Positions 9,169-20,920 of a stretch of DNA of 22,508 nt are shown here, piece after piece. Made by a program: the position numbers and the translations under genes. Each line of letters begins with the position of its first letter. The stretch's first letter is position 1. The stretch is taken from the IMG/VR virus record IMGVR_UViG_3300006793_000312, positions 1-22,508 of that record, one strand, 5' to 3'. Below the pieces are notes generated by a model that saw only the letters and a program-made list of their open reading frames with translations, was not told the origin of the DNA and did no database searches. The stretch is from a virus.

Positions 9169-9312
9169 ATGATGGCTACTAAAAAAACACCCACTCCTGT
9201 AGTTCCCGCACCTCCATATGGAAGACCTTTAAATAAAGATGAAATAGAATTTGTAAAAGAAAATATAAAAAAACTACAAGAATATGGGCAAAAGAAAAAG
9301 AAAAAGAAATGA
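9169..9312 (+). CDS. Small Pro/Lys-rich protein, first gene of the rightward operon
   Basis: This 47-residue protein begins MMATKKTPTPVVPAPPYGRP, continues with a short charged helix and ends in six lysines. A good ribosome site (AAGGAAAG) directly precedes the tandem ATGs. The stop overlaps the ATG of the following oxygenase (ATGA), so the two are translationally coupled. I do not recognise a family. The dense Pro segment (seven Pro in residues 8-20) beside a 2OG oxygenase makes a substrate or recruitment role conceivable, but that is speculation. The coding evidence is the ribosome site, the coupling, and the fact that it fills the gap exactly. Confidence 0.7.
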   Translation: MMATKKTPTPVVPAPPYGRPLNKDEIEFVKENIKKLQEYGQKKKKKK

Positions 9313-9980
9313 GTAAGGAAAAAACTAAAGTAGATTTTCACGCAATTAGACCTTTTGGTCCTACAATATTACAGGGAAAACTACCGGATCAGTTAATTAA
9401 AATACTTGATGATAGAGCAACAGAGTTGTTTGATGATGAAAAATTATCAAAAGAATATGATCATTCAATGAATTTAGCGGGTAATGTCAAACAAGAAGTT
9501 CGTTATCCTACTGAAGATTTAGGGGGTAAAGAATTCAAACCTTTAATAGATGCTATAGGTCAAATTGTTAAACAATATATATCTATACCTCCAGCTAGTG
9601 ATACCATATCACCTGCATTTGTAGGTTCAATGGTTATTGAATCTATGTGGGCCGTGAGCCAATGGTCGGGAGACTTTAATCCTTTTCATATACACCAAGG
9701 AGAATTATCAGGTGTAATTTATTTACGGGTACCACCTAGTTTAAAAGAAGAATATAAAAAAGAAGATCACTATCCTTGTGTAGGAGATATAATTTGGCAT
9801 TGTGGTCAAGCTGCAACTTTTAGCGGACACAAACATCAAGCAACCCCTGAAGTTGGAGCAATTTATCTTTTTCCTTCTTGGTTATCACATGGTGTTTATC
9901 CATTTAGAACACAAAACGAAGAAAGAAGATCGGTGTCTTTTAATTTACATTTAAAGAAAAAAGAACCTATTAATGATTGA
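9309..9980 (+). CDS. 2OG-Fe(II) oxygenase-like protein 1 (2OG-FeII_Oxy_5 type)
   Basis: This 223-residue predicted non-haem iron dioxygenase would couple 2-oxoglutarate decarboxylation to hydroxylation of an unknown substrate. The C-terminal half has the family's blocks: W119 then NPFHIHQGELSGVIYLR (H127, H129), LFPSWLSHGVYPF (H194) and RRSVSFNLH (R206/R207). The second metal position reads H-x-H rather than H-x-D. Compared with oxygenases 2 and 3 it has a longer insert between the blocks (about 141-180, with a Cys/His-containing segment). Translation is coupled to the 47-aa gene by ATGA, and its own ribosome site is poor. It overlaps the next gene by 8 nt. The substrate is unknown; the family assignment rests on recognised motifs, not a search. 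Confidence 0.85.
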   Translation: MSKEKTKVDFHAIRPFGPTILQGKLPDQLIKILDDRATELFDDEKLSKEYDHSMNLAGNVKQEVRYPTEDLGGKEFKPLIDAIGQIVKQYISIPPASDTISPAFVGSMVIESMWAVSQWSGDFNPFHIHQGELSGVIYLRVPPSLKEEYKKEDHYPCVGDIIWHCGQAATFSGHKHQATPEVGAIYLFPSWLSHGVYPFRTQNEERRSVSFNLHLKKKEPIND

Positions 9981-10254
9981 CATTGATAAAGTTCCAATGG
10001 TCCGTGTGACGTGGCTCGATGCCCGTGATACAGAAACCGGGTGGCTTGACATAAAAGAAATTATTAATGCACCGTTGGCCGTGTGCCAAGAAGTAGGTTG
10101 GATGATTACTAATAATGATGAAAGAATAGTTATTATGAGATCTTACAGTAAAGACAAAGACGATGTATCTGGAGGAGGTGCTATTGCCATACCTAAAGGA
10201 TGGATAACAAAAATAGAATATTTAGAGGTAAGTTATGCAAGAAATAATTCTTAA
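9973..10254 (+). CDS. Conserved small phage protein, function unknown
   Basis: The 93 residues contain VRVTWLDARDTETGWLD, CQEVGWMITNNDERIVIM and AIPKGWITKIEYL. I recognise this pattern (a 'W-x-DA', a 'T/V-GW' turn, then 'IP-x-G-x-I') as a widespread small phage protein of mixed beta type with no known role. It starts 8 nt before the end of oxygenase 1 and overlaps oxygenase 2 by 20 nt, so it belongs firmly to this operon. The ribosome site is weak and coupling is likely. Confidence 0.85.
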   Translation: MIDIDKVPMVRVTWLDARDTETGWLDIKEIINAPLAVCQEVGWMITNNDERIVIMRSYSKDKDDVSGGGAIAIPKGWITKIEYLEVSYARNNS

Positions 10255-10756
10255 AAAATTAAGTGTTATAAAGACAAGTGTTAACATTGAATTATTAAAT
10301 ATAATTAATCAATATGTAAAAGAACACGGGGACAAATTTAAAAGTAGAAAATGGAATTGTAATTCTGCAACATCTCATAATTTATGTCATAATATATTAC
10401 ATGATGTTATTGAGTTTAAAAATGTTAGAGAAGCCATACACGAACAATTAGCTATTTATTTTGAGGCAGTTCAAAAAAGAAGCATTCCGTTTTTAATAAA
10501 TGAATCTTGGATAAACATAATTGATAAATGGGGGTATCAAGAATTTCATGAACATAGTCCTGCTTTTGTTGCAGGAGTTTTATACATATCCGAACAAAAC
10601 TCAGACATAGAATTTGCTACTTTTCCTAGTAGTAGTAAAACATTAATTACTCCTAAAAAAGGAGATTTATTATTTTTTGAGGGCAATGTTTTTCATAGAG
10701 TTATTGACTCAGATAAAAAACGAATTTCTTTAGCTTTTAATATTCATGCACCATAA
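10235..10756 (+). CDS. 2OG-Fe(II) oxygenase-like protein 2
   Basis: This 173-residue protein has the same motif order as oxygenases 1 and 3: W92, YQEFHEHSPAFVAGVLYIS (H105, H107), GDLLFFEGNVFHRV (H154) and KRISLAFNIH (R163). The predicted fold is a double-stranded beta-helix occupying roughly residues 85-172, with a helical N-terminal part. GAGG lies about 6 nt before the ATG, which is 20 nt inside the preceding gene. As in protein 1, the H-x-H at the expected H-x-D site is notable. Substrate unknown. A 74-nt gap, the largest in this operon, follows before the glycosyltransferase. Confidence 0.82.
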   Translation: MQEIILKKLSVIKTSVNIELLNIINQYVKEHGDKFKSRKWNCNSATSHNLCHNILHDVIEFKNVREAIHEQLAIYFEAVQKRSIPFLINESWINIIDKWGYQEFHEHSPAFVAGVLYISEQNSDIEFATFPSSSKTLITPKKGDLLFFEGNVFHRVIDSDKKRISLAFNIHAP

Positions 10757-10830
10757 TAAAAATACAAAATCAGATTTACAATCTTTCGGTGATAGCTCTA
10801 ATAGATTTACATTAAACATATTTTATAAAG

Positions 10831-11619
10831 ATGTCACATAAGATCTTCATAGGTACCCCTTGTTACGGAGGTATGCTTACAGCAGATTATTTTAAAAGTT
10901 GTTTGCAACTTATTGCTTTAGCCGCTCAAAAAAAAATAGAAATACAAATTGGTACAATCGGTAATGAATCATTAATAACACGAGCTCGTAATACTTTAGT
11001 TCAATTATTTATGGATGAAAAAAAATATACTCATCTTTTATTTATTGATGCTGATATTGCTTTTAATCCTGAATCAGTTTTTCGCATGTTAGATTTAGAT
11101 AAAGATGTAATAACAGGTGTTTATCCTCGTAAACTAATTGATTGGACAAAAGTTAAAAGAAGAGTGATTGAAAACCCTAATATAAAAGAAGATGAATTGC
11201 ACGCAGCTTCTTTGCAATATAATTTAAATGTTAAAGATCCTAATAATGTTAAAGTTGAAAAAGGATTTATTGAAGTATTAGACGGTGCAACAGGTTTTAT
11301 GTTAATAAAAAGACAAGTGTTTGAGAAAATGGCTAAGGCCTATCCTGATTTAAAATTTAAATCTGACCAACATTTAAATCAACCACATGATACAGAATTT
11401 AATTATCATGATACATCTGATTGGAACTACGCATTTTTTGATACTATGGTGGAACCAGAAACTAAAAGATATTTATCTGAAGATTATTCTTTTTGCCGTT
11501 TATGGCAGAAAATAGGTGGTAAAATATATGCGGATATTCTTAGCGGTATGACTCACTTTGGTAATTACCCTTTCAAAGGTAATGTAGCCACTCAATTCTT
11601 GCCACAAAACAATAAATAA
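10831..11619 (+). CDS. GT-A type glycosyltransferase
   Basis: The 262 residues have a nucleotide-sugar transferase look: a beta-strand start (KIFIGTPCYGG), then ARNTLVQLFM, then THLLFIDADIAFNP, whose D-A-D (about residues 73-75) is the metal- and nucleotide-binding DxD motif. ITGVYPRK and LDGATGFMLIKR follow, then a C-terminal acceptor region with YLSEDYSFCRLWQKIGGKIYAD. The pattern is that of a phage glycosyltransferase (GT2/Anp1-like) that could glycosylate virion proteins, DNA bases or host envelope sugars. It sits between an oxygenase and a tail protein, which favours modification of virion or cell surface (inference). No strong ribosome site is visible (only AAAG before the ATG). Confidence 0.85.
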   Translation: MSHKIFIGTPCYGGMLTADYFKSCLQLIALAAQKKIEIQIGTIGNESLITRARNTLVQLFMDEKKYTHLLFIDADIAFNPESVFRMLDLDKDVITGVYPRKLIDWTKVKRRVIENPNIKEDELHAASLQYNLNVKDPNNVKVEKGFIEVLDGATGFMLIKRQVFEKMAKAYPDLKFKSDQHLNQPHDTEFNYHDTSDWNYAFFDTMVEPETKRYLSEDYSFCRLWQKIGGKIYADILSGMTHFGNYPFKGNVATQFLPQNNK

Positions 11620-11627
11620 TTTAGTAT
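11599..11627 (+). promoter_or_regulatory. Weak candidate promoter before the 614-aa tail gene
   Basis: TTGCCA (11599-11604), a 17-nt spacer and TAGTAT (11622-11627) precede ATG 11636, which lacks a ribosome site. Predicted initiation would fall only one or two nt before the ATG, implying a near-leaderless message. Chance is a serious alternative in AT-rich DNA. Confidence 0.2.
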
Positions 11628-11635
11628 ACTCCAAC

Positions 11636-13480
11636 ATGAAATTGACTGATTTAAAGTTCCAACCTGGTATAGATAAACAAGATACTGCTTATTCAGCAGG
11701 AGACCAACGTAAATATGTTGACTCTGATTTTGTACGTTTTCACTACGGAAAACCTGAGAGATGGGGTGGCTGGGGATATTTACCTAGCCCTAATAAAACT
11801 ATTGTGGGCGTGGTCCGTGATACACATTCTTGGCTAGGTTTAGATGGAACCAAATATTTAGCTTTAGGAACAGATAGAAAATTATATCTTTTTACAGGTG
11901 GTGGTTTTACTGATATTACTCCTATTAGAGAAACAGCTTCTTTAACAAATCCTTTTACAACAAATGGCACTACTACAGTAACTGTTACAGATGCAGCTCA
12001 TGGCGCTGCTGAAGGTGATTTTGTAACCTTTGATTCTTTTTCAGCTATTGATGGTTTAGATATGAATCAAGAGTTTGAAATTACAACGTATGTAGATGCT
12101 AGTACATATAAAGTTACTCATACTAGCACAGCTTCTGGATCAACTTCAGGAGGTGGAGGAACAGGAAATGCTAATTATCAAATAACTACAGGACCTGCTA
12201 CTTCTACTTTTGGATATGGTTGGGGAACTCTAACATGGAATTTAAGCACTTGGAACACTCCTAGATCAAGTTCAAGTCTTGTATTGTCAGCACGTCAATG
12301 GTCTTTAGATAATTTTGGAGAAGATTTAATTGCTACTGCTTTAAATGGTGGTACTTTTATTTGGGACACATCAAGTGGATTAGGAACTAGAGCAACAGCT
12401 TTATCCAATGCACCAACAGCTTCTAGATTTAGTTTGGTTTCTACAGATACTAGACACTTATTAATTTTTGGAACAGAAACAACAATTGGAAATACTGGAA
12501 CTCAAGATGATTTGTTTTTTAGATTTTCTGATAGAGAAAATGCTACTGATTATACTCCTGTAGCTACTAATGAAGCAGGTTCCCTTCGTATTTCTGATGG
12601 TTCTAGAATAATAGGTGCTGTAAAATCTGCGGGTCAGATACTTGTTTGGACCGATACATCTTTACAAGGTATTCAATTTGTTGGCACTCCATTTACTTTT
12701 GGAATGAGACAACTTGGTGCTAACTGTGGATTAATAGCACAGCATGCGGCAATAGAAGTAAATGGAAAAGCGTATTGGATGTCGGATGATTCCTTTTATT
12801 TGTATGATGGTGTTGTTAAAAAAATGCCTTGTTCTGTGCAAGATTATGTATTTGATGATCTTAGTTATACAAACAGAAATGATATTGCCGTTGGGTTAAA
12901 CACAGCGTTTAACGAAATTATTTGGTACTACCCTTCAGCAAATGCTACACAAATAGATAGAGGCGTTGTTTACAATTATTTAGAAAATACTTGGTATACA
13001 TTAACTTTAGATAGAACAACTTGGCTTGGTGCTTATGTATATGAATTACCAATAGCCACAGAATATAGCACAAGTGTAACAGCAAATGTATCTACTATAT
13101 TAGGTTTGACCGCAGGAGCTTCGTATGTTTATGAACATGAGACAGGTAATAATCAAGCTAATGGTGCAGCAATTACAGCTTTCTTAACTACAGGTTCAGT
13201 AGAAATAGGAGATGGGGACGAGTTAATGTCAGTTAGTAAATTAGTTCCTGACTTTGATAATTTATCAAACACCTTAACAGCTACCTTAACTTTAAATCAA
13301 TATCCACAATCCACTAATAGTGTTTCTACTTCAGGAACTATCTCTAGCACAACACAGAAAATTAATGTAAGAGGGAGAGGCAGGGCAGTAAAAATTAAAT
13401 ATGAAACTAACACAATTAATGACACAGCTTGGAGACTTGGATCAACAAAGTTACAACTTAGACAAGACGGAAGAAGATAA
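11636..13480 (+). CDS. Tail/head-completion structural protein (P22 gp10-like candidate)
   Basis: This 614-residue beta-rich protein begins with FQPGIDKQDTAYSAG, then VDSDFVRFHYGKPERWGGW. This 'QPGI...T-x-Y...W/Y-x-D-x-D-x-VRF-x-x-G-x-PE-x-GGW' signature recurs at the N-terminus of a large family of podovirus-type tail proteins. Residues ~100-175 form a small beta module (TVTVTDAAHGAAEGDFVTF...STYKVTHTS). The rest has repeated blade-like patterns (LLIFGTETT, ILVWTDTSLQGIQFVG, YWMSDDSFYLYDG), suggesting a beta-propeller-like body. A tail-hub or stabilisation role is inferred. There is no ribosome site before the ATG. Its TAA overlaps the next ATG (TAATG). Confidence 0.8.
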   Translation: MKLTDLKFQPGIDKQDTAYSAGDQRKYVDSDFVRFHYGKPERWGGWGYLPSPNKTIVGVVRDTHSWLGLDGTKYLALGTDRKLYLFTGGGFTDITPIRETASLTNPFTTNGTTTVTVTDAAHGAAEGDFVTFDSFSAIDGLDMNQEFEITTYVDASTYKVTHTSTASGSTSGGGGTGNANYQITTGPATSTFGYGWGTLTWNLSTWNTPRSSSSLVLSARQWSLDNFGEDLIATALNGGTFIWDTSSGLGTRATALSNAPTASRFSLVSTDTRHLLIFGTETTIGNTGTQDDLFFRFSDRENATDYTPVATNEAGSLRISDGSRIIGAVKSAGQILVWTDTSLQGIQFVGTPFTFGMRQLGANCGLIAQHAAIEVNGKAYWMSDDSFYLYDGVVKKMPCSVQDYVFDDLSYTNRNDIAVGLNTAFNEIIWYYPSANATQIDRGVVYNYLENTWYTLTLDRTTWLGAYVYELPIATEYSTSVTANVSTILGLTAGASYVYEHETGNNQANGAAITAFLTTGSVEIGDGDELMSVSKLVPDFDNLSNTLTATLTLNQYPQSTNSVSTSGTISSTTQKINVRGRGRAVKIKYETNTINDTAWRLGSTKLQLRQDGRR

Positions 13481-13647
13481 TGGCTAAAATTACAATAACA
13501 AGATTACCAAACGCAACATCAGAGTATAGTGCTACTCAGTTTGACCAAATGATAAATTTGTTAGATCAAATTATTTTTTTGCTTAACACAAACTATCAAA
13601 GCGAATTAAAATCAGAGGCGGAGGCGGAGGCTTTTTTCTTTGGCTAA
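13480..13647 (+). CDS. Small phage tail-region protein (55 aa)
   Basis: This 55-residue protein starts MAKITITRLPNATSEYSATQ and ends with a Glu-Ala repeat and FFFG. The pattern 'RLPxAT-x-EY...Q-F...LL-x-Q-I...LN-x-x-Y...E-A-x-x-F-F-G' is one I recognise from short proteins found beside marine-phage tail genes. The ATG overlaps the TAA of the 614-aa gene. The last 8 nt overlap the TTG start of the next gene. The 3' end contains a GAGGCG tandem repeat that also supplies the next gene's ribosome site. Function unknown, presumably tail-associated. Confidence 0.8.
   Translation: MAKITITRLPNATSEYSATQFDQMINLLDQIIFLLNTNYQSELKSEAEAEAFFFG
13615..13631 (+). repeat. GAGGCG hexamer repeat (about 2.8 copies) coding Glu-Ala and serving as ribosome site
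   Basis: Two full and one partial GAGGCG units encode the Glu-Ala run at the end of the 55-aa protein. The last GGAGG (13626-13630) lies 9 nt before the TTG start at 13640, so the repeat doubles as a Shine-Dalgarno sequence. Confidence 0.6.
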
Positions 13648-14002
13648 TGTATTTAAAAGCGCAATGTTGGATGTCACCACGACAGACCTAACAATTTTAA
13701 TTACCGTGCCAACAGCTGATCCTGGTGCTTCTCCTTCCGTGCCCCCTACTACAGCATTAGTGAAATCTATTTTGGTTTGTAATGATTCAGCTAATACCAC
13801 TCTTCTTGATATAGAAGTCTTGAGATCATCAGCGACGTTTGAAGTATTTAAAGAAAAAAGTGTTGCTACAAAAACAACAACAGAATTATTAGAACAACCA
13901 TTAGTTTTACAAGAAAGTGATGTTATGAAAGTCCAAGCAAATGCAGCTAATCAAGTACATATTACTGCAAGTTATATGGAGATTACGAAAGGACAACTTT
14001 GA
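13640..14002 (+). CDS. Small beta-rich phage structural protein, TTG start
   Basis: The 120 residues start MANVFKSAMLDVTTT and show alternating hydrophobic strands throughout (TILITVPTA, ALVKSILVCNDS, ELLEQPLVLQESDVMKVQA). I recognise the pattern 'MANVFK...T-V...L-x-V-x-N...D-V' with late 'L-x-x-GD-x-I-x-V' as a small beta-sandwich protein common next to phage tail genes; its role is not known to me. The start is TTG, supported by GGAGG 9 nt upstream and by the conserved-looking MANVFK beginning; ATG 13664 would lose it. It overlaps both neighbours (8 nt upstream, TTGA downstream), so the block is translated as a unit. Confidence 0.8.
   Translation: MANVFKSAMLDVTTTDLTILITVPTADPGASPSVPPTTALVKSILVCNDSANTTLLDIEVLRSSATFEVFKEKSVATKTTTELLEQPLVLQESDVMKVQANAANQVHITASYMEITKGQL
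13988..13993 (+). promoter_or_regulatory. Shine-Dalgarno supporting a TTG start at 13999
   Basis: AAAGGA ends 5 nt before TTG 13999. This supports initiation at the TTG that overlaps the previous stop (TTGA) rather than at the next in-frame ATG far inside the oxygenase domain. Confidence 0.5.
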
Positions 14003-14595
14003 TTAATCTTCATTCTTTATTTATAACTCCAGTTTTTTCTCTTCAACTTAAAGATTATGAACATCTTAGCGATGCTATATACCAATTAAAAGAAAAAGAT
14101 CAAAAAGGAATGCCTCGATCAAATATAGGCGGATGGCATAGTAATGATGAAATACATGAAATAAAAAAATTTAAACCTTTAGTTAATGATATTCTTAAAT
14201 ACGCTAAAGATTGTTTTAATCACATGGATGTAAAAGATAATTATGTTCCTGAAGTGACTGGAATGTGGGGCATGATAAATCCACCAAGATCTAGAAATAA
14301 TGTTCATACTCATCCCTATAACTATCTATCTGGTGTATTTTATTTAAAGGCACCTAAAAAAAGTGGCAGTATTGTGTTTCTAGAGCCTAAACCACAGTCA
14401 GAGGTACTATCACCCCCAAAAACAGATAAAGCTTCTATACACCTCGCTCATAGCGTACAATGGGAACCTGTTGAAAATTCCTTGATTTTTTTTCCTTCAT
14501 GGTTACAACATGAAGTACAAACAAATAATTCTGATAAAGATAGAGTTATTATTAGTTTTAACATAAATTGGAGAGACAAAGATGCCGATAGTTGA
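13999..14595 (+). CDS. 2OG-Fe(II) oxygenase-like protein 3 (2OG-FeII_Oxy_5 type)
   Basis: This 198-residue protein starts at a TTG overlapping the previous stop. The family blocks are complete: N-terminal FITPVFSLQL, MWGMINPPRSRNNVHTHPYN (H103, H105), YLSGVFYLKAP, SLIFFPSWLQHEVQ (H171) and DRVIISFNINW (R182). Of the ten oxygenases here, this fits the 'HxHP...SGVYYL...FPSWL-x-H-x-V...R-x-x-ISFN' signature best. That signature belongs to a putative 2OG-Fe(II) oxygenase family widespread in marine phages and bacteria with unknown substrates. It sits directly after three tail genes and overlaps the next gene by 14 nt. Confidence 0.88.
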   Translation: MINLHSLFITPVFSLQLKDYEHLSDAIYQLKEKDQKGMPRSNIGGWHSNDEIHEIKKFKPLVNDILKYAKDCFNHMDVKDNYVPEVTGMWGMINPPRSRNNVHTHPYNYLSGVFYLKAPKKSGSIVFLEPKPQSEVLSPPKTDKASIHLAHSVQWEPVENSLIFFPSWLQHEVQTNNSDKDRVIISFNINWRDKDADS

Positions 14596-14833
14596 ACCCG
14601 CTGAATTACTAGGACACATTACAACAAGTGATGGAAGAAGAATTCCTCACTATAAAGTAAAAACTGAAACAACGATTACTCACGTTGATACAGGTGTTGA
14701 ATATGAATCAGAAAATGCAGCTCAAGCTGATGTTGATAATCCAGGGACATCTACAACTGCTGAAAAGATTAGAAGAGATGTAAAAGTATTTGCTCCTTCT
14801 TTAGAAGATATGCTAGGTGAAACACCTGAATAA
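14582..14833 (+). CDS. Small conserved phage protein, unknown function
   Basis: The 83 residues include LLGHITTSDGRRIPHYKVKT, then THVDTGVEYESENAAQADVD and IRRDVKVFAPSLEDM. The 'THVDTG-x-x-Y-x-S...DI-x-RDV-x-V' pattern resembles small proteins of marine (cyanophage-like) phages. GGAGAG lies 6 nt before the ATG, which is 14 nt inside oxygenase 3. It is the last gene of this rightward block. Its TAA directly abuts the stop of the leftward 71-aa gene with no base between them, and no terminator hairpin is visible. Confidence 0.82.
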   Translation: MPIVEPAELLGHITTSDGRRIPHYKVKTETTITHVDTGVEYESENAAQADVDNPGTSTTAEKIRRDVKVFAPSLEDMLGETPE

Positions 14834-15049
14834 TTAAGCACTACAAGCTTCACAATCAATTTCTGAAGAATTGCCGTTTAACATAACTTGTTCATCTGAA
14901 GTATTATGACAAGCACATCCTTGAAGATGTCTTGCAAAAGCATCACTTAATCTTTCTTTCTCTCTTTCTAATTGTAATAAACGTTCATGATATCTGCTCA
15001 CCTTATCTACAAGGGTAGCTATAGCCTTCAATACTTCTTGATTTTCCAT
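14834..15049 (-). CDS. 71-aa coiled-coil protein with Cys/His cluster
   Basis: Residues 3-42 form a strongly predicted charged helix or coiled coil (VDKVSRYHERLLQLEREKER). The C-terminus holds C45-x-C47-H48, then a gap and C66-x-x-C69, spacing compatible with a small zinc or iron-sulphur site. Neither is proven. A clear AGGAGA lies 6 nt before the ATG. The gene stands alone on the minus strand between two rightward blocks, with its own candidate promoter at 15085-15113. This arrangement suits a small regulator or an early-expressed accessory protein. I do not recognise the family. Confidence 0.82.
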   Translation of the reverse strand: MENQEVLKAIATLVDKVSRYHERLLQLEREKERLSDAFARHLQGCACHNTSDEQVMLNGNSSEIDCEACSA

Positions 15050-15084
15050 AATTTCTCCTGATTTTTTAATTTTGGGTGAGATCT

Positions 15085-15113
15085 AATTTAAACATGTGTA
15101 CAGAATATATCAA
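15085..15113 (-). promoter_or_regulatory. Candidate promoter for the 71-aa gene
   Basis: On the minus strand TTGATA (15113-15108), a 17-nt spacer and TAAATT (15090-15085) give 5/6 and 4/6 matches. The predicted leader is about 30 nt and includes the AGGAGA ribosome site. It lies in the 126-nt gap between this gene and oxygenase 4. Confidence 0.38.
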
Positions 15114-15175
15114 GCAATCTTTTTAAAATTGTTTTCTTGACAGCGAATTCATGCTATGAAAGAGGCAGAAAAAGA

Positions 15176-15760
15176 ATGCAATTAGTTAATAATTATTTCA
15201 TTATAGAAAATGCTGTTCCAGACAGATTTTGTAATTATATTCTTGAATATGGAAAAAACTTAAAAGAAAAAGTAGCCACTATTGCAGGTGCTGATGAAAA
15301 ACAAAAAGAAGAATTAGAAAAAACAAGAAAATCGAACGTTGTTTGGTTAACTGAAAAATGGTTATATAGAGAAATACAACCATTAGTTCATGAAGCTAAT
15401 GCACAAGCAGGTTGGAATTTTCAATGGGATAATACAGAGTCATGTCAATTTACAAAGTATGAAGGTTCAAAGAAACAATTTTATCATTGGCACACAGATT
15501 CTGGTGCAGACGTTCTTGATAATCTACCTATGAGAAAAATTTCTGCTACTTTAATTTTGGTAGACAGAGAAAATTATAAAGGCGGTGATTTTGAAATATG
15601 CATTCCACATCCTGAAAAATCAAAAATTATTACTATTGAACTTCGTAAAAGAGGCACAATGATATTTTTTCCTTCTTTTGTTTGGCACAGAGTTACTCCT
15701 GTTACTGAGGGAACAAGATGCTCATTAGTTTGTTGGAATACAGGGAAAAAATTTATATAA
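15176..15760 (+). CDS. 2OG-Fe(II) oxygenase 4, prolyl-4-hydroxylase/PKHD type
   Basis: This 194-residue protein has the P4H-type catalytic layout: N-terminal YFIIENAVPDRFCNYIL; QFTKYEGSKKQFYHWHTDSG with the iron-binding H106-x-D108; a second strand block with KISATLILV and GGDFEICIP; then FFPSFVWHRVTPVTEG with the distal H171 and the 2OG-binding R181 in TRCSLVCW. This is close to the bacterial/phage PKHD hydroxylase pattern, so prolyl or other peptidyl hydroxylation is plausible but unproven. An in-frame TTG at 15137 would add 13 residues unlike the family start, so I chose ATG 15176, with GAGG about 10 nt upstream. It opens the second rightward block; an 18-nt gap follows. Confidence 0.88.
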   Translation: MQLVNNYFIIENAVPDRFCNYILEYGKNLKEKVATIAGADEKQKEELEKTRKSNVVWLTEKWLYREIQPLVHEANAQAGWNFQWDNTESCQFTKYEGSKKQFYHWHTDSGADVLDNLPMRKISATLILVDRENYKGGDFEICIPHPEKSKIITIELRKRGTMIFFPSFVWHRVTPVTEGTRCSLVCWNTGKKFI

Positions 15761-15778
15761 CAATTTTAAGGAGATAAA

Positions 15779-16402
15779 ATGAGTTTTCAAAAAAATAAAT
15801 ATGAAATAGTTAAAAAAGCAATTACTAAAGAATTAACTAGTTTTTGTTATGCTTATTTTTTAAACAAAAGAAAAGTTGCAGATTATTTATTTAATTCAAA
15901 ATATATTTCACGTTTTGATCCTACTTGGGGAACGTGGGCCGATGAACAAATACCAAACACATACTCTCACTATGCTGATTTAGTTATGGAAACTTTATTA
16001 GAAAGAGTTCTTCCAAAAATGATACAAACAACAAAACTTAATCTTATTCCTACTTATAGTTATGCTCGAATATATAAATATGGTGATATTTTACATCGAC
16101 ATAAAGATAGACCATCGTGTGAAATATCATGCACTCTTAATTTAGGCGGAGATGAATGGCCTATATATTTAGATCCTACTGGAGAATTTGGTAATAAAGG
16201 TAAAAAGGTTATTCTTAAACAAGGAGATATGTTAGCTTATAGTGGATGTGATTTAGAACATTGGAGAGAAACTTTTAAAGGTCAAGATTGTTGTCAAGTT
16301 TTTTTACATTATAATAATACTGAAGGTGATTTTGAACAAAAAAACATTTATGATAATAGACCTTTTTTAGGTCTACCAGGAGACTTTAAAAATAATGGAT
16401 AA
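15779..16402 (+). CDS. 2OG-Fe(II) oxygenase-like protein 5 (HRHKDRPSCE type)
   Basis: The 207 residues contain PTYSYARIYKYGDILHRHKD with the iron motif H108-x-D110, RPSCEISCTLNLGGDEWPIY, and KQGDMLAYSGCDLEHWRETF with the distal H161. QDCCQVFLHYNN follows, where other oxygenases have the 2OG-binding Arg strand. I recognise this 'HRHKDRPSCEIS...GC-x-LEHWRE...QVFLHY' pattern as a phage and marine-bacterial oxygenase subgroup distinct from the P4H-like ones. AAGGAGA sits 5 nt before the ATG, the best ribosome site in this block, so expression may be high. The substrate is unknown. It overlaps the next gene by 8 nt. Confidence 0.85.
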   Translation: MSFQKNKYEIVKKAITKELTSFCYAYFLNKRKVADYLFNSKYISRFDPTWGTWADEQIPNTYSHYADLVMETLLERVLPKMIQTTKLNLIPTYSYARIYKYGDILHRHKDRPSCEISCTLNLGGDEWPIYLDPTGEFGNKGKKVILKQGDMLAYSGCDLEHWRETFKGQDCCQVFLHYNNTEGDFEQKNIYDNRPFLGLPGDFKNNG

Positions 16403-16727
16403 TTTACAAGAAAAATTTAATTTTTTAAAATCAAGAAAATATGAAAAGTCTAATCACCCTGGGGTAGAAGTTTTTTATGATAAACAAACTTTTTTAAAAA
16501 TAAATAAAAAAACAAAAATTACTTTAACACCAGGAAATGTTTTATTTATAATAAAAAAAGCAATTGGTTTAAAAGAAGGGGCTTTAAAAATTTTAGAAGA
16601 AGCTGAATTACATAATGAAACAAATCAAAATATGTATTGTGTTTTAACAAATTGTTTATTTTCAGAAGAATATACGAACAATAAAATTTTTATAAAAACA
16701 GGTAATAGTGAAAGGGCTTTAATATGA
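16395..16727 (+). CDS. Orphan 110-aa protein inside the oxygenase block
   Basis: I do not recognise a family. The protein is Lys/Asn-rich with no HxD motif, no transmembrane segment and no signal peptide. Visible segments are a charged N-terminus (LQEKFNFLKSRKYEKS), a strand-rich middle (VEVFYDKQTFLKI) and NVLFIIKKAIGLKEGALKIL. It overlaps oxygenase 5 by 8 nt and oxygenase 6 by 4 nt (ATGA), so it is translated with them. Its own ribosome site is poor (AGGAG about 12 nt away). Being locked between oxygenases suggests a partner, substrate or accessory role, but nothing in the sequence proves that. Confidence 0.72.
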   Translation: MDNLQEKFNFLKSRKYEKSNHPGVEVFYDKQTFLKINKKTKITLTPGNVLFIIKKAIGLKEGALKILEEAELHNETNQNMYCVLTNCLFSEEYTNNKIFIKTGNSERALI

Positions 16728-17230
16728 AAGTAATTGATAATTTTTTACCAAATGACATACATCAACAATTCGTTGATTTATTAATGTCAAACGATTTTCC
16801 ATATTATTTTATTGACGGTGTAGCTAACATAAATGGAACGGAAGATGATTTTATATTTTTTCACAATCTTTACGGCAATCCACATAATTTTAATCATTCT
16901 GGTGGAGAGATTGTTAGTAGATATTTTAATATGATAGCAATGCCATTATTAGGTAGATTAAATTTTAACAATTTATTAAGAGCAAGAGTAAATTTGTATA
17001 CAAGAAAACACGAAGGGGTAATTAGTGATTTTCATCAAGATTTAGAGGAAAGACATACTGTTGCTTTATACAATATAAATTCTAATAACGGAGTAACTGT
17101 ATTTAAAACAGGAGAAAAACTTCCTTCGGTTGCAAATCAAATGATTATTTTTGATGGTAAATTAGATCATGCAGTAATACCTCAAACAGATACGAAGTTA
17201 AGAGTAAACATTAATTTAAATATTTTATGA
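16724..17230 (+). CDS. 2OG-Fe(II) oxygenase-like protein 6, tandem paralogue A
   Basis: This 168-residue compact oxygenase is of a type common in cyanophages: start MKVIDNFLPNDIHQQF, NDFPYYFIDG in the N-terminal part, LLRARVNLYTR strand, iron motif SDFHQDLEE (H104, D106), VALYNINSNNGVTVF, then VANQMIIFDGKLDHAVIPQTD with distal H149 and R160 for 2OG. All expected catalytic residues are present. AAAGGG lies 7 nt before the ATG, so this first array member can be initiated independently; later members lack such a site. It overlaps its neighbours by 4 nt on both sides. Substrate unknown; soluble, cytoplasmic by sequence. Confidence 0.86.
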   Translation: MKVIDNFLPNDIHQQFVDLLMSNDFPYYFIDGVANINGTEDDFIFFHNLYGNPHNFNHSGGEIVSRYFNMIAMPLLGRLNFNNLLRARVNLYTRKHEGVISDFHQDLEERHTVALYNINSNNGVTVFKTGEKLPSVANQMIIFDGKLDHAVIPQTDTKLRVNINLNIL

Positions 17231-17739
17231 AAGTAATTAATAATTTTTTACCTGATGAAATACATCAACAGTTTGTTGATTTGTTAATGTCAAATGATTT
17301 TCCATATTTTTACATAGATGGTTTATCTCACACAGACGGAACTGAGGATGATTTTCACTTTCTTCATAATCTTTACGGCAATCCACACAATTTTGATCAT
17401 TCAGGGGGAGAGATTGTTAGTAGATATTTTAATCGTTTAATCATGCCTATATTAGGAAGACTTCCTCTTACTTTTAATAATTTATTAAGAGCAAGAGTAA
17501 ATTTATTAACAAGAGCCAAGAACCCAATAATAAGTAATTTTCATAGAGATTTAGAAGATAAACATACAGTTGCATTATATTATTTAAATTCAAACAATGG
17601 TGAAACTGTTTTTAAAACAGGCGAAAAAGTTCCTTCAGTTGCAAACCAAATGCTTATTTTTGATGGTCATATGGACCATGCTGTTATTCCACAAACAGAT
17701 GAAAAAGTAAGGGTTAATATTAATTTAAATTTATCATGA
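17227..17739 (+). CDS. 2OG-Fe(II) oxygenase-like protein 7, tandem paralogue B
   Basis: The 170 residues are clearly paralogous to its two neighbours along the whole length. Catalytic set: SNFHRDLED (H106, D108), DGHMDHAVIPQTD (H151) and R162. Differences from A and C are a two-residue insertion (LPLTFNN against LNFNN) and a changed loop before the iron motif (LLTRAKNPI against LYTRKHE), which lies where a substrate-specificity loop could be. No ribosome site is visible before the ATG; translation probably depends on reinitiation through the ATGA overlap with A. Near-identical DNA blocks are shared alternately with A and C. Confidence 0.86.
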   Translation: MKVINNFLPDEIHQQFVDLLMSNDFPYFYIDGLSHTDGTEDDFHFLHNLYGNPHNFDHSGGEIVSRYFNRLIMPILGRLPLTFNNLLRARVNLLTRAKNPIISNFHRDLEDKHTVALYYLNSNNGETVFKTGEKVPSVANQMLIFDGHMDHAVIPQTDEKVRVNINLNLS

Positions 17740-18257
17740 AAGTAATTGATAATTTTTTACCTAATGAAATACACCAACAGTTTGTTGATTTGTTAATGTC
17801 AAATGATTTTCCATATTATTATATTGATGGAAATAATTTTTTATTAACTAATACAGATAATAAAGCTGAAGATGATTTTTTATTTTTTCATAACCTCTAT
17901 GGTAATCCACACAATTTTAATCATACAGGAGGAGAAATAATAAGTAAGTATTTTAATATGTTAGTAATGCCTTTATTAGGTAAATTAAATTTTAACAATC
18001 TACTAAGAGCAAGAATAAATTTATACACAAGAAAACATGAGGCAATTATGAGTAATATGCACAGAGATATAGAAGAAGAACATACCGTTGCTTTGTATTA
18101 TTTAAATTCTAATAACGGAGTAACTGTATTTAGAGAAGGTAAAAGAGTACCCTCAGTGGCAAACCAAATGCTTATTTTTGATGGTAAATTATACCATGCT
18201 GTTATTCCACAGACAGATAAAAAAATAAGAATAAACATAAACCTAAATTTATCATGA
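17736..18257 (+). CDS. 2OG-Fe(II) oxygenase-like protein 8, tandem paralogue C
   Basis: The 173 residues form the third close paralogue. Catalytic set: SNMHRDIEE (H109, D111), DGKLYHAVIPQTD (H154) and R165. It differs by a longer, Asn/Thr-rich loop at residues 33-45 (NNFLLTNTDNKAED) where A and B have a shorter one, so the length variation lies in the N-terminal lid region while the catalytic core is kept. It has no ribosome site of its own and is coupled to B by ATGA. The next gene begins with the same ATGA overlap. Confidence 0.86.
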   Translation: MKVIDNFLPNEIHQQFVDLLMSNDFPYYYIDGNNFLLTNTDNKAEDDFLFFHNLYGNPHNFNHTGGEIISKYFNMLVMPLLGKLNFNNLLRARINLYTRKHEAIMSNMHRDIEEEHTVALYYLNSNNGVTVFREGKRVPSVANQMLIFDGKLYHAVIPQTDKKIRININLNLS

Positions 18258-18787
18258 AGAAGAAAACGCAATACAAAATATTTGACAATTTTTTAGATCA
18301 AAAAACTTTTTTGATGATTCAAGAATTAGTAATGTCTCCCGAACTACCTTTTTTTTATAATGCTATTTTAAATTATGAACAAGGAGACGATTATGAAAAG
18401 CATAAATATGATTATTATTTTACGCACCTTGCATATAAAAACGACAGAGATAATTTAGTAAAAGGGGGGAGACAAAGTGTTTATTTAGAAAATTTTATGC
18501 CAATAGTAGAGAAGCTTAGTGTTTCTTCTTTATTAAGAATTAAAGTTAATTTTTATCCACGAACAGAAGAAATGAAAATACATGCTGCTCATACAGACTA
18601 CCCTTTTGATCACAACGGTGCACTATTTTATATTAACACTTGTGATGGTTATACGGTGTTAGAAGACGGAACAAAAATTGAAAGCATTGCAAACAGAGTT
18701 TTGGTTTTTAATGGTGGTTCTCTACATTCATCAACTTCTTGCACAAATGCACAAGGTAGATTTAATGTTAATTTTAATTACTTTTAA
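18254..18787 (+). CDS. 2OG-Fe(II) oxygenase-like protein 9, diverged array member
   Basis: The 177 residues share the architecture of A-C with low identity: YKIFDNFLDQKTF, LPFFYNAILN, SLLRIKVNFYPRTEE, iron motif HAAHTDYPF (H113, D115), ALFYINTCDGYTVLEDG, IANRVLVFNGGSLHSSTS (H158) and GRFNVNFNYF (R169). It is closer than A-C to the cyanophage form ('LLRIK-x-N-x-YPRT...HTD...YINT-x-x-GYT...IANR...F...H-x-x-T-x-C'). So it is probably an older or separately acquired member, not part of the recent triplication. It is coupled by ATGA to C. Its TAA abuts the stop of the leftward oxygenase 10 with no gap. Confidence 0.86.
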   Translation: MKKKTQYKIFDNFLDQKTFLMIQELVMSPELPFFYNAILNYEQGDDYEKHKYDYYFTHLAYKNDRDNLVKGGRQSVYLENFMPIVEKLSVSSLLRIKVNFYPRTEEMKIHAAHTDYPFDHNGALFYINTCDGYTVLEDGTKIESIANRVLVFNGGSLHSSTSCTNAQGRFNVNFNYF

Positions 18788-19381
18788 TTATTCTCCAGGA
18801 TAAGCATTTTGCCAACGCATAGATAAACCAACAAAAGGTTTTTTATTTTTATTTTGTGTAATGCTATGACGTAAGTAAGAAGGAAACATAACAAATCTTC
18901 CTTTTTTAAAAGTAACTGCGTATCTTCTTTTTTTATGTCTTCCATATTCATGTTCAAATATTATTTCACATGGTTTATCTCCGGGATCTAAACAAAAAAC
19001 TAAAGACATGTCAGGAGACTCTTCATAATCCCAATCATTAATATGATGATGTGATCCAATACTTTCATTATGATTTAAATAAATACCATACAAAGAATTT
19101 ATCTTTATAGGTTGCTCACATTCATAACGATAGTTATCTCTTATATAGTCAACCAACCAAGTTATGTGTTGTAAAGCATCTAATTTGTAATAATTATTAT
19201 CAGAGTACCAATGTTCAGGTCTAACTCTTAGATTTTGTTTTTTACTTTTTTTAACATGATTACACATCATATCATTGTCTATTAAAAGTTTTTTTGAAAG
19301 TTGATGAACAATTACAAATTCCTCTGAAAGAACTTTCTTATCAAATAATTTGTATGTAGAAAAATTTAAATGTTTATCCAC
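18788..19381 (-). CDS. 2OG-Fe(II) oxygenase-like protein 10, GTG start, in the tail-fibre operon
   Basis: This 197-residue protein carries the oxygenase 1-3 type layout: YGIYLNHNESIGSHHHINDWD (H111-H113 and D116), SLVFCLDPGD, GRFVMFPSYLRHSITQN (H172), then KPFVGLSMRW. At the last block the Arg normally followed by -x-S-[IV]-S is replaced by Lys/Pro (residues 180-182), so 2OG binding may be altered or use Lys. It starts at GTG 19381, 16 nt inside the preceding gene, with no visible ribosome site. It is the last gene of the leftward fibre operon, which links it in expression to the adhesins rather than to oxygenases 4-9. Confidence 0.7.
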   Translation of the reverse strand: MDKHLNFSTYKLFDKKVLSEEFVIVHQLSKKLLIDNDMMCNHVKKSKKQNLRVRPEHWYSDNNYYKLDALQHITWLVDYIRDNYRYECEQPIKINSLYGIYLNHNESIGSHHHINDWDYEESPDMSLVFCLDPGDKPCEIIFEHEYGRHKKRRYAVTFKKGRFVMFPSYLRHSITQNKNKKPFVGLSMRWQNAYPGE

Positions 19382-19875
19382 GAAGAATTACTAGCATCCC
19401 ATTTAACTTGAGTGCTGTTATCATCTGGATCAACACTTAACCATCTTGTATTAGTTTCATCCCATTGTATAACATAAGGCAAATCACCTTTTAATGTTAC
19501 TGATGGGAAAGCCACGGGGGGATCATACAAGCAAGTTGTGTTATTTAATGTCCATGATGAAAAAGGTTGAGGTTCTACAAAAGCGTCTTTTCCTGAATCA
19601 TATATCCAACCTATACCAGGAAAATTTTTTCTATATGCTTTTGATTGGTCACTTGCTGCATTTGTAAAATTACCATCGCTATCAACATCATACTTTACCC
19701 CTGCATGTGTGCTTCGTGAACATTTTTTCCAATTTGTCCATCCATGCACATCTGTTAAAAAAGCAACTCCAGTTGCTTCATCTTCAACATTAGAATCATT
19801 TGTTGTATCTGCGTCAGCAACAACTGAAACGCTGAGAACTACATTAGAATCATTTAATTTTGCAAAGTGTGCCAT
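19366..19875 (-). CDS. MAHFAKL-type marine-phage protein, probable tail-associated
   Basis: The 169 residues begin MAHFAKLNDSNVVLSVSVV and contain KAYRKNFPGIGWIYDSGKDAF, then PQPFSSWTLNNTTCLYDPP, and near the end YVIQWDETNTRWL. I recognise this as a protein common in marine phages: 'MAHFAKLD-x-NNVV...RKN-x-x-GIG-x-x-YD...DAF-x-x-PQP-x-x-SW-x-L...C-x-W-x-P-P...W-x-E...W'. It generally sits beside fibre genes, and its molecular role is not established. Its ATG overlaps the adhesin stop (TAATG). The C-terminus repeats W-D-x-S/T-N motifs (WDETN, WDASN). The last 16 nt overlap oxygenase 10. Confidence 0.85.
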   Translation of the reverse strand: MAHFAKLNDSNVVLSVSVVADADTTNDSNVEDEATGVAFLTDVHGWTNWKKCSRSTHAGVKYDVDSDGNFTNAASDQSKAYRKNFPGIGWIYDSGKDAFVEPQPFSSWTLNNTTCLYDPPVAFPSVTLKGDLPYVIQWDETNTRWLSVDPDDNSTQVKWDASNSSWINI

Positions 19876-20918: not shown

Positions 20919-20920
20919 TT

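Follow-up and report, generated by a model that had tools for sequence, protein, structure and literature searches.

Oxygenase genes of a marine phage within a replaceable tail-fibre cassette

Ten genes resembling 2OG-Fe(II) oxygenases crowd into one part of a stretch of phage DNA of 22,508 nucleotides (IMG/VR record IMGVR_UViG_3300006793_000312; the whole stretch is called the window here). Such oxygenases are found again and again in marine phages, with no known substrate. The original prediction was of a dedicated island for the modification of virion adhesins, the host envelope, host proteins or nucleic acids. This was right insofar as genes 4-10 lie within a cassette that is swapped together with a tail fibre. 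Crowds of 2OG genes in marine phages are already known, with described precedents, and are not unique to the window. Linking the enzymes to an adhesin cassette gives a testable form to what was a vague 'auxiliary metabolic gene'.

Ten genes in four families

The ten reading frames, which span positions 9309-19381 (10,073 bases), all proved to be genes where they had been predicted, each matching a phage family. The anticipated division into at least four subgroups corresponds to the PHROGs families phrog_81 (genes 1, 2, 3 and 10; E values of 3e-28, 1.6e-23, 2.5e-39 and 4e-12), phrog_61 (gene 4; 6.3e-36), phrog_2954 (gene 5; 3.9e-49) and phrog_274 (genes 6-9; 4e-35 to 4.6e-44). With Pfam, four of the ten lay above the curated cut-off (PF13759 in genes 1, 2 and 3, PF13640 in gene 4), gene 10 fell just below it (25.7 bits, cut-off 27) and genes 5-9 exceeded none. 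The features are as follows.

9309-9980, plus: OX1, phrog_81 / PF13759, 2OG-type oxygenase, H127-x-H129; backbone-linked
9973-10254, plus: 93-aa gene between OX1 and OX2, phrog_25889
10235-10756, plus: OX2, phrog_81 oxygenase, H105-x-H107; variable, exchanged apart from the fibre cassette
10831-11619, plus: possible glycosyltransferase (GT), GT-A-like, phrog_1574; nothing in Pfam above cut-off
11636-13480, plus: virion structural / stabilization-type protein, phrog_3287; backbone
13640-14002, plus: 120-aa gene overlapping the OX3 start, phrog_1276 match; backbone
13999-14595, plus: OX3, phrog_81 / TIGR02466 oxygenase, H103-x-H105...H171; conserved left flank of the cassette
14582-14833, plus: 83-aa gene directly after OX3; an 83-aa frame stands at the same place in 25 of 25 cassette loci
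14834-21800, no strand: swapped receptor-binding cassette, approximate; inferred ends, carried over from the L369/L405 breakpoints
15176-15760, plus: OX4, phrog_61 / PF13640, PKHD/P4H-type, H-x-D...H + Arg
15779-16402, plus: OX5, phrog_2954 (label 'ferrochelatase'); modelled 2OG fold, H108-x-D110...H161
16395-16727, plus: 110-aa gene within the cassette
16724-17230, plus: OX6, phrog_274 (label 'DNA endonuclease V'), H-x-D...H + Arg
17227-17739, plus: OX7, phrog_274; modelled 2OG fold, H106-x-D108...H151...R162
17736-18257, plus: OX8, phrog_274; paralogue of OX6 and OX7
18254-18787, plus: OX9, phrog_274; paralogue, more diverged
18788-19381, minus: OX10, divergent phrog_81, H-x-H from H111; ends the tail-fibre strand, overlaps 19366-19875
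19366-19875, minus: 169-aa gene between the fibre genes and OX10, phrog_7759
19875-20918, minus: fibre/adhesin-like protein, glycine-rich, PF21722 Gly_rich_2
20921-22240, minus: tail fibre, Peptidase_S74 chaperone domain; L369 and L405 have its N-terminal part in common and differ in the swapped distal part

The frame of gene 4 is open from a TTG at 15137, with an ATG at 15176. The predicted glycosyltransferase is tentative (phrog_34859, E 4.4e-5; Pfam below cut-off). Neighbours were counted in a wider collection, from which 210 of 277 loci of at least 6 kb were kept and the 146 with at least three 2OG genes used: the phrog_25889 gene adjoins 2OG genes in 20 of the 22 loci carrying it, and a GT-like gene adjoins one in 19 of 39.

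Structures were predicted for genes 5 and 7, and the other eight genes were placed by sequence families. Both models agree with the expected fold: they show the jelly-roll (double-stranded beta-helix) of the 2OG-Fe(II) dioxygenase superfamily, with pLDDT of 95.4 for gene 5 and 93.4 for gene 7, and all of the best 50 matches listed per model belong to the 2OG-type or related non-haem iron oxygenases (Z 14.5-17.2). The gene 5 model aligns over its full length (residues 1-207) with 2OG enzymes, its top Foldseek match being a bacterial prolyl hydroxylase; antibiotic-tailoring enzymes such as SnoN are among its matches too. The gene 7 model consists mostly of beta structure with two helices and resembles PHD2 across residues 1-170; its top match is PHD2/EGLN1, its nearest folds are mainly peptidyl hydroxylases, and against the PBCV-1 collagen prolyl hydroxylase (5c5t) it gave Z 14.5 and rmsd 2.5 with 136 aligned. 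Sequence comparison indicated that gene 4 resembles PKHD hydroxylases too. For genes 4, 5 and 7, the resemblance to peptidyl-proline hydroxylation enzymes (P4H / PHD) is to be read as a likeness of predicted fold or sequence only.

Two family labels are probably misleading, since the models of genes 5 and 7 show 2OG folds. Neither ferrochelatase (phrog_2954) nor DNA endonuclease V (phrog_274) was among the best 50 matches listed per model, and both labels were set aside on fold. Ferrochelatase has an alpha/beta fold, and T4 DNA endonuclease V (DenV) a helical glycosylase fold. E. coli has a ferrochelatase, and the phrog_2954 profile found no match in 14 control genomes, E. coli among them. None of 68 phrog_2954 members matched any Pfam family at E 0.01, ferrochelatase or 2OG, a result that is weak alone since 2OG profiles also miss them. 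Solved structures, searched by sequence with the phrog_274 and phrog_2954 profiles, gave nothing usable. Published as the ferrochelatase partner of such genes, phrog_2954 is on its predicted fold most likely an oxygenase, which we count as new here. The 'ferrochelatase' genes of HTVC023P and 023Pt_psg01 match phrog_2954 and have 2OG genes beside them; the GenBank name in 023Pt_psg01 is already hedged ('putative ferrochelatase / putative Fe(II) dependent' oxygenase). A label in current ecological use is called into question (a passage of PMC11561400 counts phrog2954 as ferrochelatase), and, since phrog_2954 models as an oxygenase, interpretations of that gene in terms of haem or iron should be reconsidered.

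A histidine at the carboxylate position

The metal-motif block with a distal His, foreseen for all ten genes, is present in two forms: H-x-D...H in genes 4-9 and H-x-H...H in genes 1, 2, 3 and 10. Because H-x-H replaces H-x-D in phrog_81, four of the ten genes are without the usual carboxylate ligand of the canonical H-x-D/E motif. Motif alignments were restricted to members over 60 bits; OX10 falls below this cut-off and was judged from its own sequence only. Among distinct sequences, the H-x-D...H triad was conserved in phrog_61 (225-226 of 227), phrog_274 (148-149 of 149) and phrog_2954 (199-200 of 203). In phrog_81, the carboxylate position was His in 423 of 427 sequences, H-x-H was found in 136 of 138 representatives under 60% identity, and the acidic share reached at most 48% in any column.

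A first round of comparing the phrog_81 profile with those of phrog_274 and phrog_61 aligned the distal His region only. With deeper alignments the full motif was aligned, H105 standing opposite the Asp of phrog_61 and phrog_274; the alignment of phrog_2954 with phrog_81 was not significant. The solved relatives 3bvc and 2rg4 likewise have H-x-H. Judged by sequence, members of phrog_81 are still homologous to the 2OG superfamily despite H-x-H. In genes 1, 2, 3 and 10 three histidines may coordinate the iron, perhaps with different chemistry, which makes this class a candidate for unusual iron chemistry. We count the H-x-H finding as new here. The one paper found on three-histidine sites with 2-oxoglutarate concerns EgtB/ACCO. 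Phrog_81 is also the most numerous of the four families (594 of 1,381, in a biased set counted per locus and not dereplicated).

Exchange with the tail fibre and what the enzymes may act on

Relatives of the window were compared in 36 contigs that carry seven or more window genes together with OX3 or a close structural gene. In 25 loci the cassette is bounded by conserved flanks, OX3 on one side and on the other a 148-aa gene or the gene next to it (identity of 75% or more required, 87-100% found). These loci reduce to 15 different cassettes, and every one of the 15 contains an S74 fibre and between 1 and 7 2OG genes. The contigs of L369 and L405 have 5,999 bp in common at 99.4% and carry different cassettes, similarity being lost after OX3 and returning inside the S74 fibre gene. 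Between the window and L405, dS was 0.11-0.27 in eight cassette genes and 0.55-1.24 in OX3, the structural gene and the GT. That genes 4-10 share a replaceable cassette with the receptor-binding tail fibre is new here. Cassettes with a long fibre carried 4-7 2OG genes and those with a short fibre 1-6 (p 0.022), and phrog_2954 occurred in 6 of 7 long-fibre versus 1 of 8 short-fibre cassettes (p 0.010), both p values being indicative as the cassettes are related.

Genes 1 and 3 are mostly backbone genes, and gene 2 varies independently. OX1 and OX3 remain with the backbone while the fibre changes (OX1 identity is 59-100% in the kin contigs having it, with a single exception at 27%). Low dS had suggested that OX2 is transferred with the fibre; this was rejected, as L369 pairs OX2, at 95%, with a different fibre, and OX2 was exchanged recently without it. 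For G024-G028, which are five relatives of the structural gene, the matches listed include no member of the four families, so this phage type does not require the oxygenases. S74 or glycine-rich fibre genes stood directly beside 2OG genes in 4 of 170 cases in the wider set; in the window, the phrog_7759 gene lies between.

The 2OG genes are under purifying selection. dN/dS was 0.09-0.31 across the seven orthologue pairs and below 0.32 in 10 of the 11 2OG pairs compared, the old OX7/OX9 pair (dS 1.0) giving 0.67. OX6-OX8 are tandem paralogues (76-77% identical, dN/dS 0.12-0.20), so the ten genes are not ten independent acquisitions.

We favour, at slightly below an even chance, a reading in which the locus belongs to a marine phage, a distant relative of the short-tailed HTVC023P/027P pelagiphages, and forms its receptor-binding island, where the cassette enzymes hydroxylate co-encoded adhesins. 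The oxygenases would be made together with the late virion proteins and, with Fe(II), O2 and 2-oxoglutarate, would hydroxylate side chains of the neighbouring adhesin; this could tune adhesin folding, stability or receptor chemistry, and with it host binding. Adhesin and enzymes would move together because each new adhesin would need its own enzyme set. A more far-reaching version, which we hold to be rather doubtful, is that adhesin alleles carry matched kits of peptidyl hydroxylases, the three-histidine class included, and that receptor specificity is altered by chemistry as well as sequence. Counterpoints to the adhesin reading are that physical closeness alone could make genes co-transfer, that many 2OG genes of the larger phages are located elsewhere, that OX1 and OX3 are backbone genes, that OX2 moved without the fibre, that fibre genes seldom adjoin 2OG genes in the wider set, that G024-G028 do without the four families and that the glycine-rich protein shows no collagen repeat by eye.

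The same cassette linkage would arise if the enzymes modified the host surface (LPS, a glycan or an outer-membrane receptor), for instance to block superinfection; sharing a receptor with the adhesin, they would move jointly with it. The GT-like neighbour counted above fits this, as do the carbamoyltransferase and tryptophan-halogenase genes that recur beside other 2OG clusters, and a passage of PMC7029224 proposes that the glycosyltransferases found in host-recognition regions of pelagimyophages have a role at the surface. We consider it unlikely: the oxygenase genes are intermingled with virion genes and overlap them, and gene 7 has a mainly peptidyl-hydroxylase-like predicted fold, though gene 5 is also SnoN-like.

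Fibre-allele linkage is unexpected for metabolic genes, and we give only a small chance to auxiliary enzymes acting on small molecules or on host iron or haem metabolism with the 'ferrochelatase' as partner. That view is in print, in passages of PMC9599517 and PMC11561400, and haem-oxygenase and bilin-reductase genes lie alongside the Mosig cluster, but phrog_2954 models as a 2OG fold with H-x-D...H and the Pfam and control-genome searches were silent. Slimmer still is the chance that a hypervariable slot gathers selfish or neutral paralogues that hitch-hike with the fibre: copy number does vary among close kin and OX6-8 are tandem paralogues, but the low dN/dS, the almost invariant catalytic residues of the family alignments and the presence of a 2OG gene in every cassette point the other way. 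AlkB-like repair or modification of nucleic acids, the least probable reading, was proposed for Syn9 in a passage of PMC2984593 and agrees with the P-SSM2 2OG genes among replication genes, with some in HTVC008M and P-SSM2 near uvsY or recombination genes and with two AlkB-type DNA-repair structures, 3bi3 and 3rzl, lower down in the Foldseek lists for genes 5 and 7. It was set aside: in the window the genes stand among virion genes and vary along with the fibre, and no AlkB- or TET/JBP-named Pfam family appeared to E 1 in the ten genes, which says little for genes 5-9 (5-7 match nothing).

Oxygenase crowds in other phages and known systems

The original prediction was to be given up if ten 2OG genes per genome proved routine, and in the six large marine T4-like phages scanned they are. 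Our profiles, which give lower bounds (Syn9 gp50 was missed though PHROGs assigns it to phrog_61), were run on ten of 42 records, picked by us. Six large marine T4-like phages, picked for having matches, carried 10-22 (at least 22 in P-SSM2, 19 in HTVC008M, 12 each in Mosig and S-RIM44, 11 in Syn9 and 10 in P-SSM7); the podoviruses HTVC023P and 023Pt_psg01, of ~60 kb, carried at least 4 each. A unique density record was likewise rejected, since other contigs equal the window and isolates come near. In a biased set, 12 other contigs reach the same peak of 9 per 10 kb, and two of these are nearly identical to the window (19 sequences make 13 contigs, window included; counts are per locus and not dereplicated, in a set that includes named phages L003-L007 and two window pieces, L001 and L002). 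In HTVC008M, Mosig, S-RIM44 and Syn9, too, the four families occur in runs next to tail-fibre or neck genes.

The PBCV-1 collagen prolyl hydroxylase (5c5t) is a virus-encoded peptidyl hydroxylase with the fold of the gene 7 model. PBCV-1 is a chlorella virus that infects algae, and the substrates are collagen-like; in contrast, the glycine-rich protein of the window, inspected by eye, has no collagen Gly-X-Pro repeat. A passage of PMC9301287 cites the PBCV-1 enzyme and calls the viral use of prolyl 4-hydroxylase still cryptic. Literature searches for hydroxylation of phage fibres showed no phage case in the titles and abstract openings listed, one of them matching a single paper, on large DNA viruses.

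In Syn9, 7 of 10 consecutive genes (gp45-gp54) match phrog_81, 61, 274 or 2954 and two more phrog_1644, a run that follows tail-fibre assembly and tryptophan halogenase genes and approaches or exceeds the density of the window. Unlike the window phage, Syn9 is a T4-like myovirus, its remaining 2OG genes scattered over 177 kb.

The claim that no system of this form had been described is not supported in view of Wittmers et al. 2022 (PMC9599517), which in the relevant passages reports eight non-orthologous 2OG genes, often near one another, in HTVC023P-type pelagiphages, clustering near a 'ferrochelatase' named as partner gene. The window likewise has several non-orthologous 2OG genes near one another and, as in that partner-gene group, near such a gene (genes 4 and 5 are adjacent), and HTVC023P and HTVC027P are among its nearest named phages (structural gene 43% and 40% identical). 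It differs in having ten 2OG genes against the four that our profiles found in HTVC023P and in 023Pt_psg01, and in that many are directly adjacent, whereas a passage of PMC9599517 says 'although not adjacent'. The main text of that paper contains neither 'tail fiber' nor 'receptor', and the partner is taken there to be a ferrochelatase.

The host recognition cluster of pelagimyophages and cyanomyophages, as outlined in PMC7029224, is likewise a hypervariable island of tail fibres and accessory enzymes flanked by conserved structural genes. The enzymes named for it in the passages of that paper are mainly glycosyltransferases, whereas those of the window are mainly 2OG oxygenases, in another type of phage.

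The oxygenase-type genes and their families

The IMG/VR record is spanned completely by the window (22,508 bases, 34% GC), in which no tRNA was found. The original prediction had named ten reading frames as 2OG-Fe(II) oxygenase-like genes (OX1-OX10, here also genes 1-10). All ten were present, and each matched a PHROGs phage family with E values of 4e-12 to 4e-49: phrog_81 for genes 1, 2, 3 and 10, phrog_61 for gene 4, phrog_2954 for gene 5 and phrog_274 for genes 6-9. Pfam cut-offs were passed by four of the ten. Virion genes among their neighbours code for a tail fibre with an S74 domain, a glycine-rich protein, a phrog_3287 structural protein and a protein of the DNA-ejection type, and one large product matches a virion structural family. 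The closest named phages, judged by the structural gene (40-46% identity), were Phage DSL-LC04 and the pelagiphages HTVC027P and HTVC023P, the last with 023Pt_psg01. The main features are:

9309-19381, plus (OX1-OX9) and minus (OX10): 2OG-Fe(II) oxygenase-like genes
10831-11619: possible glycosyltransferase, GT-A-like
11636-13480: structural gene, phrog_3287
about 14834-21800: projected extent of the cassette (OX4-OX10, 169-aa gene and fibre genes, the S74 gene in part)
19366-19875: 169-aa gene
19875-20918, minus: glycine-rich fibre gene
20921-22240, minus: S74 tail fibre gene

Among the distinct sequences gathered here, an H-x-D...H motif and an Arg were nearly invariant in phrog_274, phrog_61 and phrog_2954; no 2OG-binding role is claimed for the phrog_2954 Arg. 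The phrog_81 motif was H-x-H...H, with His at the carboxylate position in 423 of 427 sequences. When representatives below 60% identity were taken (n = 138), 136 had H-x-H and the other two H-x-N and Q-x-H; in no alignment column did acidic residues exceed 48%. In deep profile alignments this His fell at the position taken by Asp in phrog_61 (probability 96.4%) and phrog_274 (96.2%); the alignment with phrog_2954 gave the same placement but was not significant. H-x-H is also found in the solved relatives 3bvc and 2rg4. Judged from sequence, the second His is at most a candidate iron ligand.

PHROGs labels phrog_2954 'ferrochelatase' and phrog_274 'DNA endonuclease V'. Diverse IMG/VR members, together with those of the window, were aligned (68 for phrog_2954, 87 for phrog_274), and structures were predicted for genes 5 and 7. 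The gene 5 model (pLDDT 95.4) had a Pseudomonas prolyl-4-hydroxylase as best Foldseek match (E 3e-8, TM 0.60); a second structure comparison put SnoN at the top (Z 17.2, rmsd 2.9, 180 aligned), with the prolyl-4-hydroxylase 4j25 at Z 15.9 (rmsd 2.7, 161 aligned). For gene 7 (pLDDT 93.4), the best Foldseek match was PHD2/EGLN1 (E 1.4e-6), and the second comparison gave 6n1f_D as top match (Z 16.5, rmsd 2.4, 158 aligned) and a chlorella-virus collagen prolyl hydroxylase at Z 14.5 (rmsd 2.5, 136 aligned). None of the 68 phrog_2954 members matched any Pfam family at E 0.01, and none of 14 control genomes, E. coli among them, gave a match to the phrog_2954 profile. Because genes 5 and 7 model as 2OG folds and the phrog_2954 profile and Pfam searches were negative, both labels look wrong. 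The name 'ferrochelatase' for a phrog_2954-type gene is used by two ecology papers (PMC9599517, PMC11561400). In the GenBank record of 023Pt_psg01 such a gene is called 'putative ferrochelatase / putative Fe(II) dependent' oxygenase, so doubt about the label is not wholly new.

Genes of phrog_2954, a family named 'ferrochelatase' in PHROGs and GenBank but modelling as a 2OG oxygenase, lie at 15779-16402 in the window, L492:14603-15145 and L491:10809-11450 (L-numbers denote compared loci). The family phrog_274 (window 16724-18787), which models as a PHD2-like 2OG fold, appears as 'DNA endonuclease V' or denV in cyanophage records. A further candidate for a mislabelled 2OG family, on sequence matches, is phrog_1644 ('minor coat protein'), whose members also match phrog_274 or phrog_81. 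It was seen within 2OG runs at L141:10312-10974, L492:9682-10473 and L492:13414-14025, two of the three also matching phrog_274.

Density of 2OG genes in marine phages

Profiles built here matched 1,381 ORFs, before removal of overlaps, in the window and 405 loci, which include two window pieces and five named phages. Among sequences of at least 9 kb (n = 166), 152 had at least one 2OG gene, with peaks of 1 to 9 per 10 kb; as the locus set was baited with 2OG genes or the structural gene, this is not a population estimate. The peak of 9 was reached by 19 sequences representing 13 contigs, the window and two near-identical ones among them. Contigs 3300025103_000155 and 3300008050_000744 were 100% identical to the window in those cassette genes that were compared; the kin contigs 3300030095_006154 and 3300044305_001818 had 11 and 10 2OG genes.

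Totals for T4-like phages, all lower bounds, were 22 (P-SSM2), 19 (HTVC008M), 12 (Mosig), 12 (S-RIM44), 11 (Syn9) and 10 (P-SSM7); HTVC023P and 023Pt_psg01 had at least 4 each. Named phages peaked at 3-7 per 10 kb. Syn9 gp45-gp54 form a ten-gene run in 6.1 kb; seven of these genes match one of the four families, and another two match phrog_1644. Of the IMG/VR relatives, a 60-kb record had eight 2OG genes, all within 10 kb, and a 62-kb record had two; five structural-gene relatives (records of 24-35 kb) had no match to phrog_81, phrog_61, phrog_2954 or phrog_274. At least ten per genome were thus present in 6/6 large marine T4-like phages scanned; for a 22-kb record ten genes are many, but kin share this.

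Exchange of the cassette on a common backbone

We compared 36 kin contigs. The glycosyltransferase-like gene, the structural gene, a 120-aa gene, OX3 and OX1 (one exception) were kept in nearly all of them where the locus reaches, the presence of OX3 being by selection because 2OG genes or the structural gene had led to the loci. Similarity to the window in OX4-OX10, the 169-aa gene and the fibres was lost together. Where the glycine-rich fibre was at least 86% identical (four contigs), those of the OX4-OX10 genes that were present stood at 77-100%; where the S74 fibre was at 67-87%, OX4 and OX5 stood at 30-81% if present and OX6-OX8 were mostly absent. In the remaining kin, most of the OX4-OX10/fibre set was missing or below 40%. 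Two loci, L088 and L342, had OX4 at 94-100% and stop before the fibre. Past the fibre, the far flank was conserved again (148-aa gene 92-97%, 221-aa gene 79-94%, in kin except HTVC023P-type records, G005 and L247).

The interval from OX3 to the far flank, available in 25 loci, gave 15 distinct cassettes, each carrying an S74 fibre alongside one to seven 2OG genes; cassette content was not selected for where OX3 or the structural gene had served to reach the locus. Long-fibre cassettes (n = 7) had 4-7 2OG genes versus 1-6 in short-fibre ones (n = 8; Mann-Whitney p 0.022), and phrog_2954 was found in 6/7 versus 1/8 (Fisher p 0.010), p-values that are indicative only because the cassettes are related. 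A 228-230-aa gene (L397:6853-7539, DUF6065/phrog_7084) recurs in short-fibre cassettes, with none of that size among the long-fibre cassettes listed. An 83-aa frame directly follows OX3 in 25/25 cassette loci (window 14582-14833; L386:10584-10835 and kin); the two scanned against PHROGs gave no match.

Contigs 3300044270_001147 (L369) and 3300044305_001818 (L405) share 5,999 bp at 99.4%. This stretch stops shortly after OX3 and is followed by a 385-bp piece at 86%; similarity returns inside the S74 fibre gene (83.5%). On a shared backbone, the fibre tip and the oxygenases therefore differ together as a single block. When the window was compared with L405, eight cassette genes gave synonymous distances of 0.11-0.27, versus 0.55 (OX3), 0.84 (structural gene) and 1.24 (glycosyltransferase-like gene) in the backbone. 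OX2, at 0.17, has been exchanged recently and separately from the fibre, since L369 carries OX2 with a different fibre. Seven 2OG orthologue pairs had dN/dS of 0.09-0.31 and are therefore under purifying selection.

Genomic setting and putative substrates

HTVC008M has five consecutive genes (four annotated as 2OG and one 'ferrochelatase') between baseplate/tail-fibre-type genes and a neck gene. A similar run follows the tail fibres in the pelagiphage Mosig, leading to two haem/bilin genes and then neck genes; in S-RIM44 the run lies ahead of the neck gene gp13, and in Syn9 it comes after genes for tail-fibre assembly and for two tryptophan halogenases. The Mosig genes immediately after the run (L007:14313-15549) encode a haem oxygenase and a phycocyanobilin:ferredoxin oxidoreductase. 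Tryptophan halogenase (phrog_2928; L167:4780-6192) and Nol-like carbamoyltransferase (phrog_1601; L385:5646-6695) genes recur beside 2OG clusters.

Our best reading is a receptor-binding cassette that carries its own oxygenases, with the adhesin as putative substrate of the predicted activity. The runner-up is that the oxygenases would act on the host receptor. A role confined to the fibre is weakened because 2OG genes also lie among clamp, clamp-loader and methylase genes in P-SSM2, and near uvsY in both P-SSM2 and HTVC008M.

In the portions of the open-licence literature covered, nothing was found that links such oxygenases with exchanged adhesin cassettes, revises the phrog_2954 label or gives a description of the H-x-H class. 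Clustering of 2OG genes with 'ferrochelatase' in HTVC023P-type phages is already in print (PMC9599517), phrog61 and phrog2954 have been reported as seasonally enriched and read as auxiliary metabolic genes (PMC11561400), and an AlkB-like role has been suggested for Syn9 (PMC2984593). Host recognition clusters with glycosyltransferases have likewise been described (PMC7029224).
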